Below are positions 1-32,015 of a DNA stretch of 37,036 nt, piece after piece (positions within the stretch are counted from its first letter, which is position 1; every line of letters begins with the position of its first letter). Below the pieces are notes generated by a model. It had not been told where the DNA came from. It was given only the letters and a program-made list of their open reading frames with translations, and searched no databases. The position numbers and the translations under genes were made by a program. The DNA is from Thermoanaerobaculia bacterium (GTDB lineage Bacteria > Acidobacteriota > Thermoanaerobaculia > JALWYX01), in the NCBI GenBank assembly GCA_027078415.1, contig JALWYX010000068.1, positions 1 through 37,036 of the forward strand, given 5' to 3'.

Positions 1-2013
1 TTGTCTTTTTTTCCTGTGATAGCGGGTTTTTCTACTTTGTGGCTTAGGGATATACTCAGAACTCATTTTGCTTTTAAGGTTTCTCAAGTTTACTGTGTAG
101 AAAACCAATCTTTCCCATTTTTAGATCCATTGAAAAATTATGAACCTCTCGCAGCAAACCCTAACTCTTTTTTTTTCTATCCTACTACAATACTCTTTTT
201 TCTCTTAGACCCCTTGCACGCTTTAAATCTTCATATAGTTTTGCATCTATCTCTCGCGTATTTAGCTTTTTTTTATTTATCGAAACAGGTAGGTCTGTGC
301 TTAGTCAACTCTATACTTGCTGCAACTTTTTACACCTTTTCTGGATTTTCTTTCTCTCTTCTTAGTTATCCTAATTTAATACCTGCTCTTGCCCTTATAC
401 CTTATTTCATTTTTTTCTTGCTACGTAAACAAGAAATTTATGCAGCTGTATCGTTAGCTTTGATATTCCTAGCAGGTGATCCAACCATGGTAATAACGGC
501 TTTGATAATTGCACTGTTTATGCACGTTGATACCAAAACATTTGCACTTTCAAGTATATTAGCATTGCTACTCTCTTTACCACAACTTGTTTTGTTTCTA
601 GAAATTCTAGATGGAAGTGGTAGAACTACTTTCTCTTATATTTCTGCTTCGCCAGCTACATCTTTTACACTTTCCTCTATAATAGATCTTTTTATTCCAC
701 TCTTTTTTGGATCTCCTACTAATAAACCTATACCTATGTGGGGAGTAGATATATTAAGAAATCAACCCTTTATGTTCTCATTATTTTCAGGGTTTGTCCC
801 TTTCCTCCTTATGAGGGTAAATAAAAAAAATCTAATATTAGGTGCTCTTGTGGGAATAATACTCTCTTCCTCTGCGGTCTCCTCACTTTATCCTTCTTTT
901 TTTCGATTTCCCGTGAAATTTTGGCTAATTTTCCTCTTCTTTTTTTCTCTCTTAGGAGCTTTGGGCGATCAAATTCTTAGAAAAAACGTGATAGCCGTCT
1001 ACACTACATTTGCTTTTATAGGGATTTTATTAATATTTTATTCTTCGATAATAGAAATAGATACCGAAATTATTAACTATTTTCTCTTTGTATATATGAT
1101 CCAATTTGTTGTTGTAACAATAATCGTTTTTTTTAATCTATCTCCGTTTGTTCTCTCGTTGATTCATTCAGTATCTATACTGTTGTTTTTAAAACCGTTG
1201 TTTACTCCTGTTTATATAGATAAGTTGATATCGAAACCCGCGATAAAGGATCCTGTTATTCACTTGGAAGCACAAAAGTTTTCTGAATATAATCTAAATG
1301 TAGATCCTTATACTCTTGCTAAAAAATCGCATCTTCTACTTTATCCGTTTCATTTAATTAAGGAAGGATTAACTATAAACCTTTTCCCCTCTCCCGAAGG
1401 GTTATCGTTTAAGCGTACTTATCTTGCCATCAACTTGGCAAGGAGTGCTCCTCTGGATGCAAAGATAAAGCTGTTTAAGATTTGGGGGACAAACAGTTTG
1501 ATAACGTTAAATTCTTCTGCATGTACCGATTCACTTAGTTACGGTCAAGTATATCTGTGTGAGTTGAATGGAAATGGTCTTTTGTATGTACCTAAAAAGG
1601 TAGTCAAAGTTAACTCTCTGTCTGAAAGCATCAAAGCTTTTTCTTCACTTTTGGATGTTGATACAGCTGTTGTTGAAGAGGATGAAACTCATCTCTTGGC
1701 TCAAAACAGAGAAGATGTTGCTACTACCAATTTGCGATTATCATGTGAGAAGGTTACTTTTAATGTATATGCTAAGGAGAGGACTTTACTTGTTGTAAAT
1801 GTTCCTGCTCATAACTTTTTTGATCTCTATATAAATGGTAAAAAAAGTGATTTTTCAATTGCTAACTTGTACAGAGTGGCTTTTTGGGTACCTGAGGGTT
1901 ATAGTACGGTTGAGTTAACCTTTAGCAAAAAAACGTTTTTTGCTTCTTTTATTGGTCCTGTGTTCTTTTTGTTTTATTGTCTTAGGAGGAGGTTGTGGGA
2001 TGAGAAAAATTAA
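1..2013 (+). CDS. YfhO-family polytopic membrane protein, 5'-truncated by the window edge
   Basis: The reading frame is open from base 1, so the TTG there is probably not the true start. Compared with the paralogue at 6802-9126, about 20 N-terminal residues (most of the first membrane helix) are missing. The visible part has an early Arg-Asp pair (WLRD), then NPNSFFFYP, then many hydrophobic segments with an AGDP turn. These match RD, NPNYSAFYPP and GGEP in the paralogue. The C-terminus is a soluble beta-rich domain ending in a final TM helix (LYINGKKSDFS, WVPEGYSTVEL), the YfhO C-terminal layout. YfhO proteins are GT-C-like membrane proteins linked to glycosylation of cell-surface polymers; the substrate here is unknown. 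The last 14 bases overlap the biotin carboxylase gene, suggesting co-transcription. Family assignment is fairly secure, function is not. Confidence 0.75.
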   Translation: MSFFPVIAGFSTLWLRDILRTHFAFKVSQVYCVENQSFPFLDPLKNYEPLAANPNSFFFYPTTILFFLLDPLHALNLHIVLHLSLAYLAFFYLSKQVGLCLVNSILAATFYTFSGFSFSLLSYPNLIPALALIPYFIFFLLRKQEIYAAVSLALIFLAGDPTMVITALIIALFMHVDTKTFALSSILALLLSLPQLVLFLEILDGSGRTTFSYISASPATSFTLSSIIDLFIPLFFGSPTNKPIPMWGVDILRNQPFMFSLFSGFVPFLLMRVNKKNLILGALVGIILSSSAVSSLYPSFFRFPVKFWLIFLFFFSLLGALGDQILRKNVIAVYTTFAFIGILLIFYSSIIEIDTEIINYFLFVYMIQFVVVTIIVFFNLSPFVLSLIHSVSILLFLKPLFTPVYIDKLISKPAIKDPVIHLEAQKFSEYNLNVDPYTLAKKSHLLLYPFHLIKEGLTINLFPSPEGLSFKRTYLAINLARSAPLDAKIKLFKIWGTNSLITLNSSACTDSLSYGQVYLCELNGNGLLYVPKKVVKVNSLSESIKAFSSLLDVDTAVVEEDETHLLAQNREDVATTNLRLSCEKVTFNVYAKERTLLVVNVPAHNFFDLYINGKKSDFSIANLYRVAFWVPEGYSTVELTFSKKTFFASFIGPVFFLFYCLRRRLWDEKN

Positions 2014-3487
2014 AAAAGTTTTAGTTGCAAATAGAGGAGAGATAGCTCTGCGTATAATCAGAGCGTGTAGAGAGTTGGGTATAGAAAGTGTTGCTGTATA
2101 TTCCGATGTTGATCGTTTGTCTCTTCACGTGTTGAGTGCAGATTATGCATTTTCTTTAGGTGCAGCGCCGAGCGTAGAGAGTTATTTGAATATAGAAAAA
2201 ATTGTGGAAGTAGCGTTACAAGCCAAAGTAGATGCTATACATCCGGGGTACGGTTTTTTAGCTGAGAATGCCGATTTTGCTAGAGCAGTGGAAGATGCAG
2301 GAATCATTTTTATAGGTCCTTCCGCCCGTACTATAGAACTTATGGGTTCCAAAATAGCGAGTCGCCAGATAATGGAACGCGTCGGAGTTCCTGTCGTGCC
2401 TGGTACTATAGATCCTATAAGTTCTATAGAAGAAGCTCGTAAAGTAGCAGCAAAGATAGGATATCCAGTTTTAATTAAGGCATCTGCTGGAGGAGGAGGT
2501 AAAGGAATGAGAAAGGTAGCGGATGAAGCGGAGCTTGAATCAGCTTTCCGTACCGCTTCCTCCGAGGCACAAGCTAGCTTTGGTGATTCTACTGTATATA
2601 TCGAAAAATATATAGAGAATCCTCGTCATATAGAGGTACAGATTATAGGAGATACTTACGGTAATGTAATTCACCTTTTTGAAAGAGAATGTTCTATTCA
2701 AAGACGACATCAGAAAGTTATTGAAGAAGCTCCTTCTCCCTCTATAAACGATACCCAAAGAAAAGCTCTCTTTGAAGCTGCTGTTAAGGCGGCTTTGGCT
2801 GTAGATTATTATAATGCCGGAACTGTTGAATTTATTTTCGATAAAGAAGGTAACTTTTATTTTCTTGAAATGAATACACGATTGCAAGTGGAACATCCGG
2901 TTACTGAATTTGTAACGGGCGTTGATATCGTAAAAGAGCAAATATTGATATCGGAAGGAGCACGTTTGAGAAGAGATTTAAAGAATGTATCTTGTTGGGG
3001 ACACGCTATAGAATTTAGACTGTATGCTGAAGATCCTAAAAGAAACTTTGCTCCTACACCTGGAAAAATCTCTTATCTGCAATGGCCTAATGGAGGATTT
3101 GTGAGAATTGATGAAGGAGTTTATGAAGGATGGGAAGTGCCTATTTACTATGATCCGTTGATAGCCAAAATGATAGTATGGGGAAGAGATAGAAAAGAGG
3201 CCATAGATCGTTCTTTGAGAGCTCTTTTTGATACTAGAATAGAGGGTATAACAACTACTCTTGATCTGTTCAGGGCTATTTTGCGTGATCAAGATTTTAT
3301 TGAAGGAAATTTTGATGTTTCTTATCTCGATAAAAGATTAAATGACTTGATTAAAGATGAAGCTCAAGAGCTATTGCCTGTATTAGCTAGCGCAATATTG
3401 GAGAGTTACAGAGAGAAGTTGACAGTTCAAGATAACGATATGTGGAAAAAAGTTGCTAGACTAGAATCTGTAGGAGGATGTGTATGA
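2000..3487 (+). CDS. accC: Biotin carboxylase subunit of an acetyl-/acyl-CoA carboxylase
   Basis: This is the ATP-dependent carboxylase that loads CO2 onto carrier-bound biotin. The frame is open from 1940, but the start at 2000 is chosen because AGGAGGAGG lies at 1984-1992 and the protein then begins MRKIKKVLVANRGEIA, the normal family N-terminus. The resulting 495 residues show the N-terminal lobe (KVLVANRGEIALRI), the ATP-grasp glycine loop ASAGGGGKGM after K160, K118 in MGSK, and the active-site string EMNTRLQVEHP (E290, N292, R294, Q296, E298). All key residues align with E. coli AccC at an offset of two. It is about 45 residues longer than classic AccC, with a C-terminal helical tail, closer to alpha subunits of propionyl-/acyl-CoA carboxylases. 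Its stop overlaps the next start as ATGA. No carboxyltransferase gene is in the window, so substrate is undecided. Confidence 0.95.
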   Translation: MRKIKKVLVANRGEIALRIIRACRELGIESVAVYSDVDRLSLHVLSADYAFSLGAAPSVESYLNIEKIVEVALQAKVDAIHPGYGFLAENADFARAVEDAGIIFIGPSARTIELMGSKIASRQIMERVGVPVVPGTIDPISSIEEARKVAAKIGYPVLIKASAGGGGKGMRKVADEAELESAFRTASSEAQASFGDSTVYIEKYIENPRHIEVQIIGDTYGNVIHLFERECSIQRRHQKVIEEAPSPSINDTQRKALFEAAVKAALAVDYYNAGTVEFIFDKEGNFYFLEMNTRLQVEHPVTEFVTGVDIVKEQILISEGARLRRDLKNVSCWGHAIEFRLYAEDPKRNFAPTPGKISYLQWPNGGFVRIDEGVYEGWEVPIYYDPLIAKMIVWGRDRKEAIDRSLRALFDTRIEGITTTLDLFRAILRDQDFIEGNFDVSYLDKRLNDLIKDEAQELLPVLASAILESYREKLTVQDNDMWKKVARLESVGGCV

Positions 3488-3996
3488 ATCTGATTATTAA
3501 AGGTAAAAGTACTGAATACAAAGTAAAGGTTGAGAGAGCTACGAACAATGGTTTTATAGTAAAAGCAGAAGGTAAATTTTATAAATTTAACGCTCTGCCT
3601 GTTAAAAAAGGAGCTCTCAGCCTGATAGATGACAGCGGAAAACAAAAATATATTACTTATTCTGTTACAGATAATAATGAATATACCATATCGCTTGCAG
3701 AGAAAAGTTATACACTCTGTGTGATGGATCAGTTAGAAGCTGCAGGGTCGGCTGTTTCCTCTGCGTCGGTCGAGGGTGTCTATCTGTTGAAAGCTCCTAT
3801 AGCAGGTAAAATAGCTAAAATTTGTGTTAGTGAAGGAGAGAATGTCCAAAAGGGTGAAGTGTTATTAGTATTAGAAGCGATGAAAATGCAAAACGAGATA
3901 CAGACAGATTTTTCGGGTGTAATTAATAAAGTATTTGTAAAAGAAGGAAAAACGGTTAGTAACGATGAGGCTTTAATAGAAATAAAAATCTCCTGA
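3484..3996 (+). CDS. Biotin carboxyl carrier protein of acyl-CoA carboxylase
   Basis: This protein carries biotin between the carboxylase and carboxyltransferase. The last 70 residues are a biotinyl/lipoyl domain with LEAMKMQNEI; the biotinylated lysine is K134. The first 80-90 residues form a beta-rich domain (KVKVERATNNGFIVKAEG...) resembling the region between biotin carboxylase and biotin domains of single-chain acyl-CoA carboxylase alpha subunits, rather than the Ala/Pro-rich N-terminus of E. coli AccB. ATG at 3478 is also in frame but touches the Shine-Dalgarno AGGAGG (3472-3477). ATG at 3484 has a 6-nt spacer and gives an ATGA overlap with accC, so it is preferred (170 aa). The pair therefore looks like a split alpha chain. 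Whether it serves acetyl-, propionyl- or another CoA ester cannot be told from here. Confidence 0.88.
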   Translation: MNLIIKGKSTEYKVKVERATNNGFIVKAEGKFYKFNALPVKKGALSLIDDSGKQKYITYSVTDNNEYTISLAEKSYTLCVMDQLEAAGSAVSSASVEGVYLLKAPIAGKIAKICVSEGENVQKGEVLLVLEAMKMQNEIQTDFSGVINKVFVKEGKTVSNDEALIEIKIS

Positions 3997-4485: not shown

Positions 4486-6075
4486 TTAAGTAGGGAGATA
4501 GATTTGGAATTCTGTGGTTTTATCTTTTCTTCTTATTTCTATTTTGCCTCCGTGTAGAGTTATTACGTTGCGAGCTATAGAAAGACCTAGACCTACTCCT
4601 TCTCTTTTGGTAGAGAAAAAAGGCTGAAATATTTTATCTAAATTATCCACCTCTATACCAGGTCCATCGTCTTTTATAGTAATTAAAACACCATTTTCTT
4701 TTTCTGTTATTTCTATTTCTACAACGCTAGAAGCTGCGTGTAGAGCGTTTTCTATTAAGTTGAAGAGAGCTTTTTTTAGTAGTTTCTCATCTCCTCTCAC
4801 AAAAGCTTTCTTATATGAGAATACGAATTCTATTTCACCTTTTTGCTGGTTAAGTGCAAGGAGTATATTACTGATAGTTTTACCTATATCCACTTTCTTT
4901 CTTTGTTGAGGCTTTGTTGTAGAGAATATCAGAAAGTCTGATACAACTTTTTCCAAATATCTCTCCTCTTTTAAAATTTCTTCTATATAGTGTTGCAATT
5001 TTTCATCTGCTTCTTCAGCTAATAGCTGTATATATCCTTTAAGCGTTGTAAGACCGTTTCTTAGTTCATGAGCAACTCCTGCAGCCATTTCTCCTAGCGA
5101 AAATAGAACGCTTTCCAATGTGCGATCTTTAACCTCTATCTCTTTTACCGATAAAGTATCTATTAGTATGAGAAAACCTTTTATTCTGTCTCTATCTTTT
5201 AGGATATCGATAGACACCATAAATCTGTTTCCTGAGATAGTTACCTCTTCACGTACTATTCTTGTCTGATCTTTAAAAGAGCGTTGTACTAAGTGTAGTA
5301 TAGGCTCAGGTAGTGCGCTTTCTATAGGGGTGTTTACTTTCAATTTGGGAAATAGATCGCGTCCCTTTTGATTAGCTACTAAGAAAATTCCTCTAGCATC
5401 ACACAGGATAAAAGCTGTCTGCGCGTACTCAACCAGTTGAGAAGAATCGTTTCTTGTAGATCTTTCTGTGTGTTGTCGTAAAAAATTTTCTATAACGTAT
5501 TCCAACCTTTCTATAGATCGTGAGTGTTCTGGAGACTTGATAATGTGTGTTATAACTTTTTCAAAAGGGGTTAATATTCTGTGTAAAAAAAATAGTAGCC
5601 ATATAACCACACCTGTAACTGATATAACAGATGTTACAACTAGAATAGTCATTTTACGCATGTATAGTGTTGCTGGTGGATAAGTGTCTACTATAAGCTT
5701 GAAATTTTTGCCTCTTTTATCGATGAAATTTTGAGAAAAGTAAAATTCTTGTGATAGCCTAAAATCTTGATCTAATGTATTGGTATATATAGTTCTGCCT
5801 TCTGAATCTAGAAGAATTACAATAATAGGACTTTCTCTAAATAGATACTCTAAAGATGAGATGCGCTCTGTGGCGTTGTAAGAGCGCTCTAATTCGTTAA
5901 CTATAAGTTTTCCTATAGAATTGACAAATTTATTTTTCCTTACAACTTCTTCTACAACTACATTTCTGTAAGCAACCGTTGTATATATGTTTACCGTAAC
6001 TAAAAGAAGTAACGCTAACGGAAGGAGTATATGTAAATGTTTATATAGTGGTAAGTATTTATCCTTTTTATCCAT
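4486..6075 (-). CDS. Membrane sensor histidine kinase, NtrB/PilS-like
   Basis: Domain order over 529 residues is: TM1 (about 14-32), an extracytoplasmic sensing region of roughly 105 residues, TM2 (about 142-164), a linker, a PAS-like domain (about 210-310; TAFILCDARGIFLVAN), a HisKA dimerisation helix with phospho-acceptor H336 in AAGVAHELRNGL, and a GHKL ATPase with N box NLIENALHAA, G1 DDGPGIE, F box FFSTK and G2 GVGLGLSIA. The proline usual after HELRN is glycine here. The domain set is that of NtrB/PilS kinases, which phosphorylate sigma-54 activators. It is the last gene of an operon with prepilin peptidase (8-base overlap), which favours a pilus role. The likely partner is the NtrC-type regulator at 29378-30670, an inference since it lies far away. 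Confidence 0.88.
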   Translation of the reverse strand: MDKKDKYLPLYKHLHILLPLALLLLVTVNIYTTVAYRNVVVEEVVRKNKFVNSIGKLIVNELERSYNATERISSLEYLFRESPIIVILLDSEGRTIYTNTLDQDFRLSQEFYFSQNFIDKRGKNFKLIVDTYPPATLYMRKMTILVVTSVISVTGVVIWLLFFLHRILTPFEKVITHIIKSPEHSRSIERLEYVIENFLRQHTERSTRNDSSQLVEYAQTAFILCDARGIFLVANQKGRDLFPKLKVNTPIESALPEPILHLVQRSFKDQTRIVREEVTISGNRFMVSIDILKDRDRIKGFLILIDTLSVKEIEVKDRTLESVLFSLGEMAAGVAHELRNGLTTLKGYIQLLAEEADEKLQHYIEEILKEERYLEKVVSDFLIFSTTKPQQRKKVDIGKTISNILLALNQQKGEIEFVFSYKKAFVRGDEKLLKKALFNLIENALHAASSVVEIEITEKENGVLITIKDDGPGIEVDNLDKIFQPFFSTKREGVGLGLSIARNVITLHGGKIEIRRKDKTTEFQIYLPT

Positions 6076-6814
6076 TTCGAAGACATATAGAAATTATTTC
6101 AACTATTGTAGCGGTTGATATAAATACCCCAAAAGGCAAAGGTTTGTTTATGGGACGTTTCCATATTATAAAAGATAGTAATGAAAAAATGAGTCCTAAT
6201 AAAGATGCTATCAACATTACATATATAAGCCTGTTGACTCCGATAAATGCTCCAACCATTCCCATCATTTTTACATCCCCTAATCCCATCCCTTCTTGCC
6301 CGCGAAGCAATTGCCAACTCTTTGCTAGAATATAGAGTATTCCTCCTCCTACAGATAAGCCTAATAAAGAAGGTAAAATATACTCTTCTCCTTTAATAAA
6401 AGAAAAGAGTATCCCTGTTACTATTCCGGGTTTTGTTATCTTGTCTGGTAAGACGTAAAATTTTGCGTCTATAAACGCTAAAACTGTAAGCATCGAAAAG
6501 AGAGTACTGTTCTCTACAAAATATATACTCAGACCGTAGCATCTATAAAAGTAGAGAAAAGCGCAAGCTGTAACTAATTCTACAAAGGGATAAATTAGAG
6601 AGATATTGTATCCGCATTTTGCACATCGACCTTTTAAAAAAATGAAACTTAATATGGGAATATTGTGGTACCAACGTATTTTACAGCCGCAAAAAGCACA
6701 TCTTGAGCGTGTAAAAATTGAGTCTATTCTCCTAGGTAACCGATAGATCAAAACATTTAGATAACTGCCTATAACAGCACCTATTACGAATATAAATACC
6801 TCTACGATTTCCAT
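6068..6814 (-). CDS. pilD: Type IV prepilin peptidase / N-methyltransferase
   Basis: An inner-membrane aspartyl protease that cleaves the leader of type IV prepilins and pseudopilins and methylates the new N-terminus. In 248 residues the sequence shows the N-terminal methylase-type domain with two zinc-binding CxxC pairs (C39/C42 in CAFCGC and C64/C67 in CAKCGY), several membrane helices, and the two catalytic aspartates D116 (FIDAKFYVLPD) and D180 (GMGLGDVKMM). Length is near family norms. Its start overlaps the upstream YfhO-like gene by 13 bases and its end overlaps the kinase gene by 8, so the genes are translationally coupled. Obvious substrates in the window are the pilin at 10519-11037 and the pseudopilin at 14104-14688. 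Confidence 0.95.
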   Translation of the reverse strand: MEIVEVFIFVIGAVIGSYLNVLIYRLPRRIDSIFTRSRCAFCGCKIRWYHNIPILSFIFLKGRCAKCGYNISLIYPFVELVTACAFLYFYRCYGLSIYFVENSTLFSMLTVLAFIDAKFYVLPDKITKPGIVTGILFSFIKGEEYILPSLLGLSVGGGILYILAKSWQLLRGQEGMGLGDVKMMGMVGAFIGVNRLIYVMLIASLLGLIFSLLSFIIWKRPINKPLPFGVFISTATIVEIISICLRNG

Positions 6815-9126
6815 AAATAAAATAACATGATACCTAGAGTTATAAATGTAGCAAATGCTCCTATAGGTATATAGGGATCTTTATATTCAAAAACTATACA
6901 TTTATACCCCTTATCTTGTATAACAGCTATCATTTTACCAAACCATGACCTATAGATGCGGTGATTTTTCTTGCCTGGATATGTGTAGACTTTCCAAAAT
7001 GGATCGTAATTAAATCCTACACTAAGGGCAATTTCTGTTGGATGTGAAGGTATTACTAATATTTTGTCTATGTAGAGTTTATATTCTAAGCTAACCTTAC
7101 GAAATCTTTTGTTTGTTATGGGAATAGGGGACAGTTCTAAGTAGTTAAGCTCATCTATTTTTAAAGTGACTAGTTTTTGTAGAAACTTCTCTTTATCTTC
7201 TATAAACTCTATTATATTTACAGAGTTTACTAGATCTATAAAATGTGGAATAATTTCGATCCTATAAGTGGGTATTTTCGTTAAAGTGATACCTTTTACT
7301 AATAAAGTTTTATAATCTTCAATGGTTTGACGGTATATTATAACACTTGTATTCCACGCAGCTAGATAAAGTTTTGCGCTCCTTTTATCTTTTTCCCATA
7401 GATTTTTTAGAAGTTCGAAACTTTGAACTCCCCATTTGGTTTGCATCATGTCGTAGTCTTTATGTAGCGAGTAAGGTAACTTCCACAGGAGTGCTGTGTA
7501 AGGGTCGAGTCTTTCGCGGAAAAGCATATATTGTCGTATTCCAACCGGCCACTTTGGTGGAAAAATTTCGGGACCTGAATATAGACTACTTTGAGGGAAA
7601 ATTCTTCCTCCTTTTAAAAGATCCACTATTTTAGGAGGTTTTGTAAATAGATTTGTAGGATATATACGCAACAAACTTTTACTAAAAATTAAAGTGTGGA
7701 TAGAAGATGATAGGAATAGGAGCGATAGGAAAGCCATTCTGTACCTGATTACGACAGGTAAGATTACTATAATTATTGCAACGGCTAGGTCTAGTAACGA
7801 TGAGTGTAGTACAAATGAAGATATATTCTCTCGGAGTGTACCTTTTATGGAAGGATCTAATGCAAATTCTAATAACTCGTTTCTTATATAGGGAGATAGT
7901 AGTATTAATACCCTGGCTAACGATAAGAATAGAAAAATGTAAGCTATCTTTGTAAATGTTGTTCTAATTTTCTCAGAAATTAATAAAAGATATATACCAG
8001 TTATCCCTCCTATCGTTAAAGCGACAGTTGTAAGCAATATAAATTTTTCAGGATACCTGATAAGCCGCAAAGGGGATAGAGGTATAGATATAAGGAAAGA
8101 TTGTATAGGGGATCTTAGAGCTAATAATAGCCCTGATATGGCTAGATAAAACGTAAACTTTTTTAGTAAGTGTAGTTTGTCATCAAGTGTTATTCTTGAA
8201 AAGTAAAGAGTTAAGGCTCCTAGAAAAAGAGTGATACCTGGAGAAATAAATAGTATGTAAGGGTAATTTTTGTCGTTTATATTCCATCCTAAATATTCAC
8301 CTTCCTCGTCTTTGGTAGGATTACCCCAGAAAAAAGGCCATCCAAACTCTACCAATCTCAGGGGAGAAAGTGACCAAACTAAATTGCTTTTGTTTTGGTT
8401 GGTTCTTTCGGTTTTTAATACTCTAACAAAGGTAGGGAGTAATTGGATTGAAGAGACAAGTATAGACGTTGTGTATATCAGGATCAGCTTTTTAAGGTAG
8501 ATAAGGTTTATTTTTTTTGCAGCTATGTACAACGCTATAGATAGAGATATTATTATTGTTGCAACTGGTTCGCCTCCTAGAAGGGATAGGACTATAGGAA
8601 GACAAGCAAAAAGGATAGATTTTCCTTGCAGATAATGCATAACTCCCAAGATTGCCCAGGGAAGCCACGAGATAGATGTTAAAAAGTTATAGGTACTTAT
8701 TAGTCCTAAAAACCAACCTCCTATATATAATGAACCTCCTATCAACGATAGAGGTGTTTTTACTCCATGTTTTTCTAGCATTAGTGAAGCGCCTACACCT
8801 CCCCATAGTAGGTGTAAAAAGACCATAACTTGCAATCCCCATGGAAAACCTAGTAGTGGAAGTAGCCAGTGTGGAGGGTAAAAAGCGGAGTAGTTAGGAT
8901 TTGATAGTATAGGTTGTCCTCCATTTATGTATGGATTCCATTCTGCAAAAGATTTTTTAGAAATAGAAAGTTCCCAAAATACTTTCTTAAGAGGCCAATT
9001 GAACGTTGCAAAATCGCGCCCTACAAAAGTATTATCAGGAATAAGAATAGGAAAAGTAAGTACAAAGGCAGTTATAGCTGGTAATACAAGAAAGATGAAG
9101 TTTTTAAAAAGCCCATTCTTTAACAA
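6802..9126 (-). CDS. YfhO-family polytopic membrane protein
   Basis: A 774-residue protein with a first TM helix, then VGRDF, WNPYINGGQ, NPNYSAFYPPHW, about a dozen further hydrophobic segments and a GGEP turn between helices. The YfhO-like C-terminal domain (GFNYDPFWKVYTYPGKK) ends in a last TM helix and the residues LWKS. The N-terminal half parallels the protein at 1-2013 motif for motif, so the two are paralogues. YfhO proteins belong to the GT-C-like superfamily and some help glycosylate surface polymers such as lipoteichoic acid. Lying between an exported peptidase and prepilin peptidase, it could modify pilin or an envelope glycan, but that is only a guess. It overlaps the upstream M20 gene by 23 bases and pilD by 13. 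Confidence 0.8.
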   Translation of the reverse strand: MLKNGLFKNFIFLVLPAITAFVLTFPILIPDNTFVGRDFATFNWPLKKVFWELSISKKSFAEWNPYINGGQPILSNPNYSAFYPPHWLLPLLGFPWGLQVMVFLHLLWGGVGASLMLEKHGVKTPLSLIGGSLYIGGWFLGLISTYNFLTSISWLPWAILGVMHYLQGKSILFACLPIVLSLLGGEPVATIIISLSIALYIAAKKINLIYLKKLILIYTTSILVSSIQLLPTFVRVLKTERTNQNKSNLVWSLSPLRLVEFGWPFFWGNPTKDEEGEYLGWNINDKNYPYILFISPGITLFLGALTLYFSRITLDDKLHLLKKFTFYLAISGLLLALRSPIQSFLISIPLSPLRLIRYPEKFILLTTVALTIGGITGIYLLLISEKIRTTFTKIAYIFLFLSLARVLILLSPYIRNELLEFALDPSIKGTLRENISSFVLHSSLLDLAVAIIIVILPVVIRYRMAFLSLLFLSSSIHTLIFSKSLLRIYPTNLFTKPPKIVDLLKGGRIFPQSSLYSGPEIFPPKWPVGIRQYMLFRERLDPYTALLWKLPYSLHKDYDMMQTKWGVQSFELLKNLWEKDKRSAKLYLAAWNTSVIIYRQTIEDYKTLLVKGITLTKIPTYRIEIIPHFIDLVNSVNIIEFIEDKEKFLQKLVTLKIDELNYLELSPIPITNKRFRKVSLEYKLYIDKILVIPSHPTEIALSVGFNYDPFWKVYTYPGKKNHRIYRSWFGKMIAVIQDKGYKCIVFEYKDPYIPIGAFATFITLGIMLFYLWKS

Positions 9127-10426
9127 TTGCTTCCATCCTTCTTACCCCTTTTATAAATTCTTTTTCTGAAATAGATTCATTTGCGCCGTGTATACCCGAT
9201 GTGGATAATGGATCCAATACGAAAGGGGATATCCCGTATACATCTATCCCTGCTTCTCTTAGAAATCTAGCATCTGTAAATCCTGGTAGAAAGAAGGGCA
9301 CAACAGGAGCTTCCTTTGAGAGAACTTTTTCTAACGTTTTAAAGCCAATAGAATCCAAAGAAGATATAGGAGAATAACGGTTTTGAAGTAAAATTTCTAC
9401 TTCTAAGTTTTTTTGAGTCGCTTTTTCCTTTATGCTTTTTAACACTCCTTCTATATCTGTATCGGGTAAAAGTCGCATATCTATATAAGCTTCTGCTTTT
9501 TCTGGTACGATGTTTATCGATTGTGAACCTGATACCATGGTTATCTGAAGAGTATCGTAGAGGAAAGATTGCATTCCTGGGAAAAGAGTATCAAAGGTTT
9601 TTTTTTCTAGCACTTTAGCTATTATTTTGGCAATACCTACAGGTTCCAATGGTTTTACCCTTTTGAGAAATAGTTTTCCAGCTTCTGTTATTCTAGGCTC
9701 AAATTTTAACTCTAATATACCGTTAAGTACAACAAGTAGTTTATGTAAAGGATTATCTAGGTATCCACTAGCTGAGTGGCCTCCTCTACCTCTAGCTGAA
9801 ATTTTTATCCATAGTGGTTTTTTCTGGACAACCTCTATACCCCACCAACCTACGCCGTTTGTAAATCTTTTTGCTATTCCTCCTTCATTTATAACCCAAC
9901 TGTTTAAGAAGATATCTTTTCTGTTACGAATCAACCATCCTACTCCTTCTGTCCCTCCTTTTTCTTCGCAACATACTACTAGCATAGCAACGTTCCTGTT
10001 TAATTTTTCTCTATTCTTGGATATTTTAATGAATGCTAACAACTGAGCAATTCCTAAGCCTTTTGCATCTATAGCTCCCCTGCCCCATATTTTTCCCTCC
10101 TTTAATACTCCTGAAAAAGGAGGGTATTTCCATCGTTTTCCCTCTGCAGGTACTACATCTAAATGGTGCATAAGAATTAAAGTTGGAAGAGATGAATCTT
10201 TCTCTAATTTGCTGAACAGTGCTACAGTTCTACCTTTGTATGTTATAAATTGGTATTTTATACCGTTTTGTTCTAAAAGCGATGCAATGTAAAGAAAAGC
10301 TTTCTCTTCACCCGTGGGGGAAAAGGTGGGTATTTTTATATACTCCTGTAGCCATTTAGTAGGATAACTGTATAAAGATATACATGAAAGTAAACACAAC
10401 GAAAAAAGCGTTTTCGGTTTTAGCAC
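9104..10426 (-). CDS. Exported M20-family metallopeptidase
   Basis: A zinc-dependent exopeptidase or deacylase of the M20 family, 440 residues. Family motifs are intact: MHHLDVVP (first metal-ligand block), GRGAIDAKG (bridging Asp), CCEEKGG (catalytic Glu pair), NEGG, a dimerisation domain with GRGGHSASG, and a C-terminal HGANE histidine. The N-terminus (LFSLCLLSCISLYS) is a short hydrophobic signal, so the enzyme probably acts outside the cytoplasm; LLSC is a marginal lipobox. The start is GTG with no clear Shine-Dalgarno and an in-frame stop four codons upstream, so no earlier start exists. First gene of the operon leading to the YfhO-like protein, PilD and the sensor kinase. Substrate cannot be assigned. 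It is not a near duplicate of the cytosolic M20 enzyme at 22879-24258. Confidence 0.85.
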   Translation of the reverse strand: MLKPKTLFSLCLLSCISLYSYPTKWLQEYIKIPTFSPTGEEKAFLYIASLLEQNGIKYQFITYKGRTVALFSKLEKDSSLPTLILMHHLDVVPAEGKRWKYPPFSGVLKEGKIWGRGAIDAKGLGIAQLLAFIKISKNREKLNRNVAMLVVCCEEKGGTEGVGWLIRNRKDIFLNSWVINEGGIAKRFTNGVGWWGIEVVQKKPLWIKISARGRGGHSASGYLDNPLHKLLVVLNGILELKFEPRITEAGKLFLKRVKPLEPVGIAKIIAKVLEKKTFDTLFPGMQSFLYDTLQITMVSGSQSINIVPEKAEAYIDMRLLPDTDIEGVLKSIKEKATQKNLEVEILLQNRYSPISSLDSIGFKTLEKVLSKEAPVVPFFLPGFTDARFLREAGIDVYGISPFVLDPLSTSGIHGANESISEKEFIKGVRRMEAIVKEWAF

Positions 10427-10470: not shown

Positions 10471-10491
10471 AAAAGGGGGGATTAACCCCCC
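10471..10491 (-). terminator. Rho-independent terminator of the pilin gene
   Basis: On the minus strand a six-base GGGGGG (10491-10486), loop TTAAT, CCCCCC (10480-10475) hairpin is followed by TTTT and then another T-rich run. It lies about 28 bases after the pilin stop and before the M20 operon, so the pilin is transcribed mainly as a monocistronic message. Confidence 0.85.
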
Positions 10492-10518
10492 TCTATAGCC
10501 ACCTCTACCCCAACTAAC

Positions 10519-11037
10519 TTACTGGGTTGTCTTCTGTGGCCATCTTACAAAGAAACCATCAGACCATACTATGTCTTGGTTATAATCTGTAGGATCGAAT
10601 GCGCTCACGGTGTAGGTGGCACCATCGCATCCCTTAGCATCTCTACCCTGCGAGCATATAGCAGATACCGGAGGATTATTTAGATCGGTGATATCCAAAC
10701 GGTATTCGTAGTCATTTTTCCAACCGTCTTTTTCAGGAATCTCTTGTATGTATTGGGTTACAAGTATGCTTGCTAAAGCATCAAGACCAATCTCAGGAAC
10801 ATCACCTGACTTAAATGTTTGAGCTCCCGCTGCACCAGCCTGTGCCATATCGGTTAACCATGACATCATAGCGGTACCTACGTTTCTCATGTCCGCAACT
10901 GTCCTCTTCTGCTTTGACTTCTGCAAAGCATCGAGGAAGTTAGGGATAAGTAGCGCAGCTATGATACCGATAATAGCAACAACGATAAGCAGCTCAATCA
11001 ACGTGAAACCTTTTGAATTACCTCTTTTTCTTAACAT
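10519..11037 (-). CDS. Type IV major-pilin-like / GspG-like prepilin
   Basis: A 172-residue prepilin. The leader MLRKRGNSKG is cut after G10 to leave F11 as mature residue 1, with the conserved Glu at mature position 5 (GFTLIELLIVVAIIGIIAA). The mature part (162 aa) has the usual long hydrophobic helix, a charged KSKQKRTVADMRN stretch, and a C-terminal globular domain with two cysteines (C128, C137) that may form a disulphide loop. The Shine-Dalgarno is a full anti-SD match (AGGAGGTGA read on the minus strand, 11042-11050). A sigma-54 promoter and a strong terminator flank it, so it looks like an abundant, independently regulated structural subunit. GspG of a type II secretion system is the alternative, but the sigma-54 control and ComEA/PilS/PilR neighbours favour a pilus. 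Confidence 0.9.
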   Translation of the reverse strand: MLRKRGNSKGFTLIELLIVVAIIGIIAALLIPNFLDALQKSKQKRTVADMRNVGTAMMSWLTDMAQAGAAGAQTFKSGDVPEIGLDALASILVTQYIQEIPEKDGWKNDYEYRLDITDLNNPPVSAICSQGRDAKGCDGATYTVSAFDPTDYNQDIVWSDGFFVRWPQKTTQ

Positions 11038-11084: not shown

Positions 11085-11100
11085 AGCAAATATTATGCCA
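11085..11100 (-). promoter_or_regulatory. Sigma-54 (-24/-12) promoter of pilin
   Basis: Read on the minus strand the sequence is TGGCATAATATTTGCT. It fits the sigma-54 consensus TGGCAY-N5-TTGCW, with the GG and GC dinucleotides exactly ten bases apart. Transcription would start near 11074, leaving a leader of about 37 nt that contains the perfect Shine-Dalgarno. Sigma-54 control of the major pilin by PilS/PilR is established in Pseudomonas and other lineages. Confidence 0.85.
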
Positions 11101-11152
11101 TTTGTAATAGCTTTTATCTGTTACCTTATATAAGTTTAATTCTCTCACTGGG

Positions 11153-11189
11153 TGACAATTTTTGTAGTTTGTTGTTACAAAAAATGTCA
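11153..11189. promoter_or_regulatory. Inverted repeat, candidate enhancer-binding-protein site for pilin
   Basis: Two 14-base arms, TGACAATTTTTGTA (11153-11166) and TACAAAAAATGTCA (11176-11189), are inverted copies matching at 13 of 14 positions, separated by 9 bases. The centre lies about 97 bases upstream of the predicted sigma-54 start, the usual distance for an NtrC-class activator. The outer TGTCA/TGACA words resemble the TGTC core reported for Pseudomonas PilR sites. Confidence 0.6.
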
Positions 11190-28437: not shown

Positions 28438-29381
28438 TGCTAAAAATAGGTGTTTTACTCTCTAAACACTATCTGGTAAACCCTCTTCCTGCTATCTATG
28501 GGGTAGAGGTAGATAGTAAAGAGTTTACTTATAAACTTTATGATACTTATTTGCCTCAACTGCAAACGATATTTGATTCAGCTAAAGTTACATACTCGCA
28601 AATAGAGTATAACGTTTTCGAAGGATTTGATCTTGATAAGGATATATTAAAAGATTACGACGCTGTTGTATTACTGCCTGCAAATGACAATGAATTAGCT
28701 AGTAAAGAGATCGGTAGTTTTATCTCGTTAGCTGTGTTGACAGATTATGAAGTTGTTATAAAAAGATTGGAGAGGTTATCTAAGTTGGGCAGAAAAATCT
28801 CTAACAGTCAAATGTTTGAGAGAAAACTCTTATCAAAAGCTGTTTCTACTTTGGAAGAGAATAAACCTCTTAATGTAATCCATTTTTCAGAGAATGAGCG
28901 TAAATTGCTGAAAGGCTTTTCCTTTATATCTTTGAAGCCTTTTATAGTAGTTACAAAGAGTGATACAACTTTTCAAGGGTGTTATACGTTAACTGCCGAG
29001 ATAGATATAGAGGCAGAATTAGTAAGTATGGACTCTAGCGAGAGGCAAGAGTTTTTAGAAGAGTTTGGAATAGATATCACTTTGCATAAAAGATTAGCGG
29101 AAAAAATAGTTGAAGTTACTGCGAAAATTAAAGTTTACACAGCTAATAGTTCTGAAGCTAAAGTTTGGTTGTTTGAAAGAGAAAAAACAGTAGTCGATTT
29201 TGCGTCTTATATCCACTCTGATCTGGCTAAAAACTTTGTAAGAGCAGAAGTTTTAAACGTGAAGGATATTGTAGATGCAGGATCTATTAAAGTGGCAAAA
29301 GAGAAAAATATTCTCAAAACAGTGGGGAAAGGGTATATTATAAAAAACGAAGATTTCGTGCAAATAAAAGCCAGGGTTTAA
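28437..29381 (+). CDS. YchF-family protein with degenerate nucleotide-binding domain and intact TGS domain
   Basis: A 314-residue protein whose last two thirds follow YchF (Obg-like ATPase) closely: a helical coiled-coil insert (TDYEVVIKRLERLSKLG, LEENKPLNVIHFSENERKLL), EAELVSMDSSERQEFLEEFGI, and a C-terminal TGS domain (VWLFEREKTVVDFASYIHSD, KNFVRAEV, GKGYIIKNEDFVQ). The N-terminal third still begins MLKIGV like YchF MKIGIVG, but the P-loop is gone (LLSKHYLVN where GLPNVGKS is expected) and the G3 DxxG Asp is lost (VFEG). The protein is about 50 residues shorter than usual. The G4 position reads TKSD (173-176), closer to canonical GTPase NKxD than to the YchF NxxE. It looks like a pseudo-ATPase; the frame is intact and the reading clean, so it is not an obvious pseudogene. 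Fold assignment is good, role unknown. Confidence 0.8.
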   Translation: MLKIGVLLSKHYLVNPLPAIYGVEVDSKEFTYKLYDTYLPQLQTIFDSAKVTYSQIEYNVFEGFDLDKDILKDYDAVVLLPANDNELASKEIGSFISLAVLTDYEVVIKRLERLSKLGRKISNSQMFERKLLSKAVSTLEENKPLNVIHFSENERKLLKGFSFISLKPFIVVTKSDTTFQGCYTLTAEIDIEAELVSMDSSERQEFLEEFGIDITLHKRLAEKIVEVTAKIKVYTANSSEAKVWLFEREKTVVDFASYIHSDLAKNFVRAEVLNVKDIVDAGSIKVAKEKNILKTVGKGYIIKNEDFVQIKARV

Positions 29382-30670
29382 AGATCCTCTAGCTCATAGA
29401 TTACAGATTTAAGACCGTAATTTTTTATTTTTCTCTGTAATGTTCTTAGGCTCATGCCCAGTTCTTTTGCTACTTCTACTCTGTTTCCCTTGTATTTTAT
29501 TAACAGCTCTTTTATCAAAGAACGCTCATCTTGTAAGTGTAAATCATTAGCAGTGTATTTCTCCAGATCTTTAACTTTTATTGCTTTACCTGGGTTTATT
29601 ATCGCTATTCTTTCTATAAAATTTAAAAGCTCTCTAACGTTTCCTTCCCATCTTTTTTGCTTTAACCATTCTATAGCTTCGTCGGTTAGTGTTGGAGGTC
29701 TCAGTTTATTTTTTTTCGTAACCTTTATAATCGCGTATTTTGCTAGTAATGGTATATCTTCTTTTCTTTCTCTTAGAGGAGGTATACGGATAGGAAATAC
29801 GTTTAACCTAAAAAATAGGTCTTTCCTGAATGTGCCGTCTGATATTGAACGGTCAAGATCTTTGTTTGTAGCTGCTATAACTCTTACATCTACTTTCCTT
29901 GGAGTTCCTCCTATAGGCTCAACTATTCCATCCTCTATCACTCTTAAAAGTTTTGTCTGTGCTGATAGATCCAAATCTCCTATTTCGTCTAAGAATAAAG
30001 TGCCCTTGTCCGCTTGTACAAATTTGCCTAACCTTCTACTGGTAGCTCCTGTGAAAGCCCCCTTCTCATGACCAAACAGTTCACTTTCTACAAGTTCCTT
30101 CGGTATGGCTGAACAGTTTATAGGAATAAAAGGTTTATCTTTTCTCTGGGATAGTGAATGAATAATTTTTGCAAAAAGTTCTTTCCCAGTGCCAGATTCT
30201 CCTAGCAAAAGTACAGTGGAATTTGTTCTAGCAACTTTCTGTGCCAAACGTAGTACTTTCCTAAAGTTTTGTGATTTTCCTACTATTTTTATGCCTTCAA
30301 TCTTTTCTATTTCTAACAGAGTATGTTCTTTGATAAGTTGTAACAGTCTTTTTAGATCCAGAGGTTTTTCCAAGAATTCAACCACTCCTTCTTTAAATGC
30401 TTTTATAGCTGTCTGGGTAGTGCCATATGCGGTGATTATGAATATAGGTATATCTAAACTTTTTCTGTTTACAAATTTAACTACTTCTATTCCATTCTTA
30501 TCGGGTAGTTTTAGATCTGTGATGATAAGATCAAACTCCATATTTTCAAGGAGGGTAACTGCTTCTGAATAATTGGTAGCTTCACTGATATCCAAACCAG
30601 CTTTTCTAAGAGCTGTTACCAACATTTTACGCAAAGAGTCTTTGTCTTCAACAAGAAGAATTTTTGCCAT
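29378..30670 (-). CDS. Sigma-54-dependent response regulator, NtrC/PilR class
   Basis: An activator of sigma-54 RNA polymerase, 430 residues. Domains in order: receiver (1-120) with phospho-acceptor D52 in IITDLKLPD; AAA+ ATPase (about 130-360) with Walker A GESGTGKE (157-164), the sigma-54 contact loop GAFTGA (204-209), Walker B GTLFLDEIGD and RLNVFPIRIPPLRER; and a C-terminal Fis-type helix-turn-helix (EVAKELGMSLRTLQRKIKNY). It overlaps selA by 23 bases and converges with the YchF-like gene, their stops overlapping by 3-4 bases. It is the only sigma-54 activator in the window, so it is the natural candidate to act at the pilin promoter, with the kinase at 4486-6075 as possible partner. This pairing is an inference. 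Confidence 0.93.
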   Translation of the reverse strand: MAKILLVEDKDSLRKMLVTALRKAGLDISEATNYSEAVTLLENMEFDLIITDLKLPDKNGIEVVKFVNRKSLDIPIFIITAYGTTQTAIKAFKEGVVEFLEKPLDLKRLLQLIKEHTLLEIEKIEGIKIVGKSQNFRKVLRLAQKVARTNSTVLLLGESGTGKELFAKIIHSLSQRKDKPFIPINCSAIPKELVESELFGHEKGAFTGATSRRLGKFVQADKGTLFLDEIGDLDLSAQTKLLRVIEDGIVEPIGGTPRKVDVRVIAATNKDLDRSISDGTFRKDLFFRLNVFPIRIPPLRERKEDIPLLAKYAIIKVTKKNKLRPPTLTDEAIEWLKQKRWEGNVRELLNFIERIAIINPGKAIKVKDLEKYTANDLHLQDERSLIKELLIKYKGNRVEVAKELGMSLRTLQRKIKNYGLKSVIYELEDL

Positions 30671-32015
30671 ACAGAATTTGCTTCAATCTTTCGATTACAA
30701 TTTTATCTTCATCAGGAAATACTGTTGTTAAGTTGATAATTATTTTGTTGTGTTTTACATGAGGTACAATTGGAGGATTAGATAGCAAAAGCTTTTCTAA
30801 GGTTTTTTTCTTGTAGGGGAAAGCGAGTGCAGGAACTTCTATCGGCGTTAACACCCCTGAGCCTCCACCTAGGTAACTGCAATCTTTTATTATCTCTCCT
30901 CCTACTACTTTTTTTATCTTTTCTGTTCTTTTATTTATATTCCCAAGATCGGGTAGATTCTTTTCAATTGGCATATTTGATTCTATAAGTATACTTGAGA
31001 GTAACTTTTCTAGATACACAATTGTAAACTTACCAACTCTGAATGTTCTATAGAGCGGCGATTTGCGGAGTCTATTTATCAAGATATGTTTACCTACTAT
31101 TATTCCTCCTTGTGGCCCGTATAGTAACTTATCTGAACTAAACAGAACAAGATCTACTCCCATATCTATTAACTCTTTAACGCTGGGGAAAGGTATATCT
31201 ATTTTGTTTGTATCTATCAGTTTTCCAGAACCTTCGTCTACAAACAGGGGTATTTTAGCCGTTTTAGCTAATCTGACTAGTTCTTTTACTGTAGGGGAAG
31301 TAGTGAATCCTTCTATATTAAAGTTGCTTTTTTTTACTTTTAGTATGAATCCTGTTTTCTCGCGCGATATTGCGTTTTTGTAATCCGATATGTAAGTTTT
31401 GTTAGTTGAACCTACAATGCGGACTTTTGTTCCACTGGCTTTTAGTATTTCCATTAGCCGAAAATTGTCTCCGATTTCTATAACTTCATCCATTCCTATA
31501 ATTACTTCTTTGCCTTCTCCAAAAGTTTTTCCCACCAGATATAGAGCTGCCGCGTTGTTATTTACAACCAGTGCAGAATCGCATCCGGTTATAATACTCA
31601 ACATTTTAGCTATTCTCCAAAGCCTATCGCCTCTTTGTCCTGTATATAAGTTGAATTCTAGATCTATATAGCGCGTCAGTACTGCTAGAGAATACGTAAG
31701 TATATCATTGTCTAAAGGTGTACGCCCTAGGTTTGTATGTATAAGCGTCCCAGTAGCGTTAATTACTTTAGAAATAGAAGGTATGATTGTATTTTTTATA
31801 TATTTTTCTACGTTTGCTGCAAGAGAATTTAGGGCATCTTTTAACTCTTCTTCGTTGTTTATAGATTTTTTCAGTTCTTCTATTATTTTGGAAATGGCTA
31901 ACGATACGACCGTTTTTCCGTAAATTGTAGATAGTTTTTTTATAGAAGATTCTTGCAAGATTCTCGATATCTGAGGTATTTTCCTTAATAACAGTTTTTT
32001 ATCTCTGCTAATCAT
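30648..32015 (-). CDS. selA: L-seryl-tRNA(Sec) selenium transferase
   Basis: A PLP enzyme that converts Ser-tRNA(Sec) to Sec-tRNA(Sec). At 455 residues it is close to E. coli SelA (463). Signatures include VINATGTLIHTNLGRTPL, a PLP-domain core with NNNAAALYL, DEGSG, and the PLP lysine K296 in FSSDKLLYGPQGGIIVG. Its presence implies selenocysteine use, yet selB, selD and tRNA-Sec are not in the window and I found no gene here interrupted by an in-frame UGA. The ATG at 32015 lacks a Shine-Dalgarno and sits directly after a TATATATAT run, only 33 bases from the divergent gene. It is co-transcribed with the NtrC-type regulator (23-base overlap). An archaeal-type SelA-like paralogue of other function is unlikely given the full length. 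Confidence 0.9.
   Translation of the reverse strand: MISRDKKLLLRKIPQISRILQESSIKKLSTIYGKTVVSLAISKIIEELKKSINNEEELKDALNSLAANVEKYIKNTIIPSISKVINATGTLIHTNLGRTPLDNDILTYSLAVLTRYIDLEFNLYTGQRGDRLWRIAKMLSIITGCDSALVVNNNAAALYLVGKTFGEGKEVIIGMDEVIEIGDNFRLMEILKASGTKVRIVGSTNKTYISDYKNAISREKTGFILKVKKSNFNIEGFTTSPTVKELVRLAKTAKIPLFVDEGSGKLIDTNKIDIPFPSVKELIDMGVDLVLFSSDKLLYGPQGGIIVGKHILINRLRKSPLYRTFRVGKFTIVYLEKLLSSILIESNMPIEKNLPDLGNINKRTEKIKKVVGGEIIKDCSYLGGGSGVLTPIEVPALAFPYKKKTLEKLLLSNPPIVPHVKHNKIIINLTTVFPDEDKIVIERLKQILYGKNSSC

Follow-up and report, generated by a model that had tools for sequence, protein, structure and literature searches.

A predicted sigma-54-dependent pilin promoter with a doubled dyad, most likely read by PilR, in Thermoanaerobaculia

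RESULTS

Gene layout around the pilin gene

The stretch of DNA analyzed here (37,036 nt; hereafter, the window) comes from a 1.96-Mb genome of the class Thermoanaerobaculia (Acidobacteriota), and all genome comparisons were made at the level of this class. Its relevant features are collected in Table 1.

Table 1. Genes and predicted regulatory features of the pilin locus and of the window-encoded two-component pair
Feature	Position	Strand	Remarks
Pilin gene	10519..11037	−	172 aa; N-terminus of a type IV prepilin; C-terminal loop like that of GspG
Predicted sigma-54 −24/−12 promoter, TGGCATAATATTTGCT	11085..11100	−	GG-N10-GC; conserved at orthologous pilins; predicted start ~11074
Predicted operator site A, TGACATTTTTTGTAA	11175..11189	−	9/10 to TGACA-N5-TGTCA
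Predicted operator site B, TGACAATTTTTGTAG	11153..11167	+	8/10 to TGACA-N5-TGTCA; centre 22 bp from site A
Intrinsic terminator-like hairpin	10471..10494	−	Directly 3′ of pilin
M20-type peptidase	9104..10426	−	Next gene after pilin; synteny kept in relatives
Large multi-membrane protein, called YfhO-like	6802..9126	−	Without Pfam match; synteny kept in relatives
PilD prepilin peptidase	6068..6814	−	PF06750, PF01478
Sensor histidine kinase of the window-type pair, by its domains distinct from PilS	4486..6075	−	HisKA/HATPase; gene order in relatives
NtrC-class response regulator, probable partner of kinase 4486-6075	29378..30670	−	Receiver, sigma-54 AAA+, Fis HTH; GAFTGA
SelA-like gene	30648..32015	−	Conserved neighbour of the window-type regulator

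A domain search recognized the prepilin N-terminus of the pilin (N_methyl, PF07963), and the best NCBIfam matches, GspG and PilA_Myxo, were both under the cut-off. The AlphaFold 2 model (pLDDT 85) shows a long N-terminal helix and a beta region, and a fold search with this model returned weak matches, to type IV pilins only (best E-value, 0.018). The identity of the gene product is supported by the prepilin motif together with a model of fair confidence and its weak fold matches to solved pilins. A strong hairpin sits between the pilin gene and the overlapping genes for the peptidase, the membrane protein, PilD and the kinase, which suggests that the pilin may be made in excess over these four products. 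Separately, many relatives (L043, L044, L046 and L061) have an M20-type peptidase gene next to the pilin gene, on one side or on both; the window has one as well.

A predicted sigma-54 promoter upstream of the pilin gene

The preliminary description of this locus, made from the window alone, had proposed a sigma-54 promoter with exact GG-N10-GC spacing, and the analysis bore this out. The GG (11099-11098) and GC (11087-11086) of TGGCATAATATTTGCT are separated by exactly 10 nt, the element begins 63 bp before the pilin ATG, and it is close to the −24/−12 pattern TGGCACG-N4-TTGCW. The strict pattern TGRCAYNNNNNTTGCW had three matches in the 1.96-Mb genome compared with four for a control pattern; since this count is not above the control, the pilin site is notable by its position and conservation rather than by enrichment. 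The three strict matches lie upstream of the pilin gene, upstream of a PilY1 gene on contig C49 and within a gene on contig C79. The presence of rpoN, on which the proposed promoter depended, was confirmed (C45:37696-38172; E-value, 1e-64), and the gene was also found in all 40-41 relatives searched.

The pilY1 gene (C49, L060; positions 49-3519; PF05567) has its strict sigma-54 site at 3572-3587, i.e., 68 bp upstream of its start. At this promoter, the other intergenic strict match, we found no clear copy of the dyad described below; a palindrome with 7-bp arms, TTGTTAC-N5-GTAACAA, lies ~94 bp upstream of the sigma-54 site. A variant of the promoter itself occurs at the pilins of family f3 and of G017, which carry CGGCAC-N5-CTTGAA or a similar sequence, with TTGA replacing TTGC at −12 consistently between genomes (L029, L031, L040, L027 and L025).

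A 15-bp dyad recurs in front of pilin genes throughout the class

The window also carries an inverted repeat (11153-11166 and 11176-11189) with 13 of 14 positions complementary, a 9-nt gap and TGACA...TGTCA ends. Its centre, at 11171, lies 97 bp upstream of the predicted transcription start, as the preliminary description had reported, and 134 bp from the ATG on the same side. It is the sole repeat of such quality in the window. The same description had taken it for an operator with 14-bp arms. We reject this single long palindrome as the operator: relatives show that the unit is a 15-bp dyad, TGACA-N5-TGTCA, of which each arm is a degenerate copy. The two copies are encoded on opposite strands, and the distance between their centres corresponds to about two helical turns.

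The dyad was found by reading the upstream regions of orthologous pilin genes from the −24 element. Of 37 such regions, 15 score at least 9/10 at the N5 spacing, compared with 0.2 expected from dinucleotide shuffles (200 rounds, with a maximum of two regions reaching this score), and these shuffles control only partly for selection because the motif was derived from part of the same sequences. Two other comparisons do better as controls for selection. First, spacings of 3, 4, 6 and 7 nt gave 0, 0, 1 and 0 of the 37 regions at ≥9/10, respectively. Second, we searched with a double-site pattern consisting of two dyad units at the 22-bp spacing of the window, allowing up to three mismatches. The pilin site was the only match in its own genome, and 147 further genomes yielded 12 sites compared with one for a reversed control. 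Eight of these 12 immediately precede a pilin gene, from which they are separated by a correctly oriented sigma-54 site, and two more are accompanied by a sigma-54 site at a gene other than a pilin. Conservation of the repeat at orthologous pilins, raised earlier as a check, is thus seen in the form of the dyad, which recurs with the sigma-54 promoter across the class.

The doubled arrangement is not universal. A second site is present in this genome, in L043, L044 and L046, in G013 and in the double-site matches; most pilin genes of family f6 show one good site, and those of family f10 and of G007 carry just one site, near −37 as counted from the −24 element. An autocorrelation analysis gave no peak for a class-wide 22-bp spacing. 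Likewise, a genome search with the single dyad for a wider regulon was uninformative, with no enrichment (164 matches versus 221 for the control). Family f3 departs from the common form: the dyad reads CGACA-N6-TGTCG/CGTCA in genus g3 and has the N5 spacing in G022. The eight genomes of genus g8 (L016-L023) contain a pilin gene and rpoN, and we found no strong sigma-54 site or dyad at their pilins.

A canonical PilS/PilR operon lies outside the window

The genome encodes eight strong sigma-54 activators, a canonical PilR among them. The pilT-pilC-pilS genes are on contig C24, and the adjoining pilR frame leaves this contig within the receiver domain and resumes at the first bases of contig C34; the join is based on agreement in frame and residues and on a 7-base overlap rather than on an assembled read. 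PilS matches 6TM_PilS (PF25323) with 42.6 bits against a cut-off of 27, and PilR has receiver (with its N-terminus on C24), AAA+ and Fis HTH domains. A search of the PDB sequences returned no PilR structure, and no regulator obtained an NCBIfam name over the cut-off.

PilR was found in 33 of 41 genomes (E ≤ 1e-100), in most of them as the single best match, and the eight genomes with no match at this threshold all belong to genus g8. Its recognition helix hardly varies, reading (M)xFRSFRYY or IRSFRYY in families f1, f2, f5, f6, f7 and f8, all of which have the dyad. In family f3 the helix reads ERSFRYY both with the N6 dyad of genus g3 and with the N5 dyad of G022, so that helix and dyad covary imperfectly.

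The window-type kinase and regulator very probably form a second pilus-linked pair

No PilS transmembrane domain was detected in the kinase encoded in the window. Because of the gene order in relatives, this kinase and the NtrC-class regulator very probably constitute one pair, although their genes are ~23 kb apart in this genome: G023, G027 and G031 have the order SelA, regulator, kinase and PilD, and the G028 orthologue of the regulator, together with SelA, adjoins a kinase-PilD-peptidase-pilin cluster. The preliminary description had seen a full circuit for pilin expression in the window. Its GAFTGA regulator and its kinase are real and are pilin-linked in relatives, but closure of the circuit inside the window is not supported. 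The genome also has the PilSR operon, which lies elsewhere.

The recognition helix of the window-type regulator varies among genomes with the same dyad (SLRTLQRK, SARTLAAK and TLKTLNAK). In five genomes of family f10 (G015, G023, G027, G031 and G035; L116, L139, L140, L181 and L191), the protein ends before any HTH; there, the regulator and SelA genes are ~35-45 bp apart where they adjoin (four of the five genomes). The dyad persists in this family, as TGACGCTGGGCGTCA and TGACGCTCGACGTCA in G015 and G035 and as TGCCGCTCAGCGTCA in G027, with weaker versions in G023 and G031. Its form here, TGACR/TGCCG-N5-CGTCA, is complete or has one change in the three HTH-less genomes whose promoters were examined. 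If the reader of an operator is expected to have a DNA-binding domain wherever the operator is present, the window-type regulator fails in f10; without an HTH, it cannot be the dyad reader there.

NtrX-type regulators encoded near f6 pilins were also considered as readers and set aside; they group with NtrX and adjoin NtrY-like kinases.

DISCUSSION

PilR as the most likely reader of the dyad

We interpret the locus as a PilSR-type, sigma-54-dependent pilin promoter with a doubled dyad that is most likely read by PilR, and we put the probability of this reading at roughly three in four. The promoter, the dyad and the pilSR genes are evident from the sequence itself; binding by PilR we infer. 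In the proposed mechanism, sigma-54 RNA polymerase would sit at the −24/−12 element, the two dyads would serve as the upstream activating sequence, and phosphorylated PilR, encoded downstream of pilT-pilC-pilS, would most likely read them and activate the pilin gene. The circuit is best read as an ordinary PilS/PilR pilin switch, of a known kind and with a layout conserved across the class.

Two observations favour PilR over the window-type regulator: its helix is conserved where the dyad is, whereas the helix of its window-type counterpart diverges widely among the same genomes, and f10 keeps the dyad despite the loss of the HTH. A weaker point is that genus g8, with no PilR match at the threshold used, also has no strong sigma-54 site or dyad, yet keeps rpoN. 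Against the PilR reading we count the lack of enrichment of single dyads, the pilY1 promoter with no clear dyad, the f3 mismatch and the fact that the window-type regulator is encoded nearer the pilin genes in several relatives.

Compatible with reading by PilR is a form of dual control, in which the promoter is a target of PilR as well as of the window-type regulator, or in which the second pair exerts indirect control over pilR or pilus assembly. We consider this possible but tentative: the second pair has a conserved linkage to pilin and PilD genes, and M. xanthus offers precedents in NmpR (PMC6211767) and PilS2R2 (PMC6060248), but no further conserved motif turned up at the pilin.

The preliminary description had instead proposed that the window's own regulator reads the operator, which is probably wrong. 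Activation of the pilin gene by the window pair through the dyad would fit its GAFTGA loop and Fis HTH in this genome, and in relatives the two genes lie side by side, with links to SelA, PilD and pilins; we nevertheless regard it as unlikely, given the divergent helices at the same dyad, the HTH lost in f10 with the dyad kept, and the availability of a canonical PilSR in the genome. Somewhat more speculatively, the SelA/PilD-linked pair may act on pilus genes with no DNA site of its own, either from solution or in mixed hexamers with dyad-bound PilR. This idea, which we hold to be rather improbable, would account for the drift and the f10 loss of the second regulator's DNA-binding domain because the regulator would activate sigma-54 polymerase without a site of its own. 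Finally, a chance repeat, or a DNA or RNA hairpin unrelated to regulation, is highly improbable: although shuffles of this AT-rich DNA yield ~0.5 comparable repeats per 37 kb, they yield 0.004 within the 500 bp that surround the gene start, and a dyad of fixed spacing is conserved across families.

A mostly uncultured class of Acidobacteriota hereby gains a concrete, conserved predicted pilin operator and a likely regulator for it, and the locus illustrates that a regulator gene need not be the right one just because it is nearest. The comparison also brings to light a second two-component pair linked to the pilus, in which one family has lost the DNA-binding domain.

Comparison with known pilin control systems

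A literature search found no functional study joining PilR with Acidobacteriota pilins. PilR and sigma-54 activate pilA in Pseudomonas (PMC6058289), and pilA of Myxococcus needs PilR (PMC6211767). The locus shares a sigma-54 pilin promoter and upstream activator sites with pilA control by PilS-PilR and sigma-54 in Pseudomonas aeruginosa, Myxococcus xanthus and Geobacter, and it shares with PilS-PilR systems a six-TM PilS, an NtrC-class PilR and a pilS-pilR pair adjoining pilT-pilC (PMC6058289, PMC6211767). In contrast to those systems, the pilin gene and pilSR are unlinked here. The predicted sites also differ from that of Pseudomonas, which is described as a NifA-like 5′-TGTN11AGA-3′ with GTCT elements (PMC6058289), in that they are two phased copies of the compact TGACA-N5-TGTCA.

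For the second pair, M. xanthus provides two counterparts. One, NmpRSTU, includes a second NtrC-class regulator, NmpR, that modulates pilin expression indirectly through pilR (PMC6211767); in comparison, no hybrid-kinase phosphorelay was seen here. The other, the second pilus-linked pair PilS2R2, is likewise a kinase and NtrC-class regulator encoded with pilus genes beside PilSR (PMC6060248). The window pair resembles it in this respect and would work at most like such second systems; it differs from PilS2R2 in the SelA and PilD genes beside it and in lacking an HTH in f10. The SelA-like gene is consistently found next to the window-type regulator in different families (L080, L116, L118, L120, L138-L140, L182, L191 and L192, in addition to the window).
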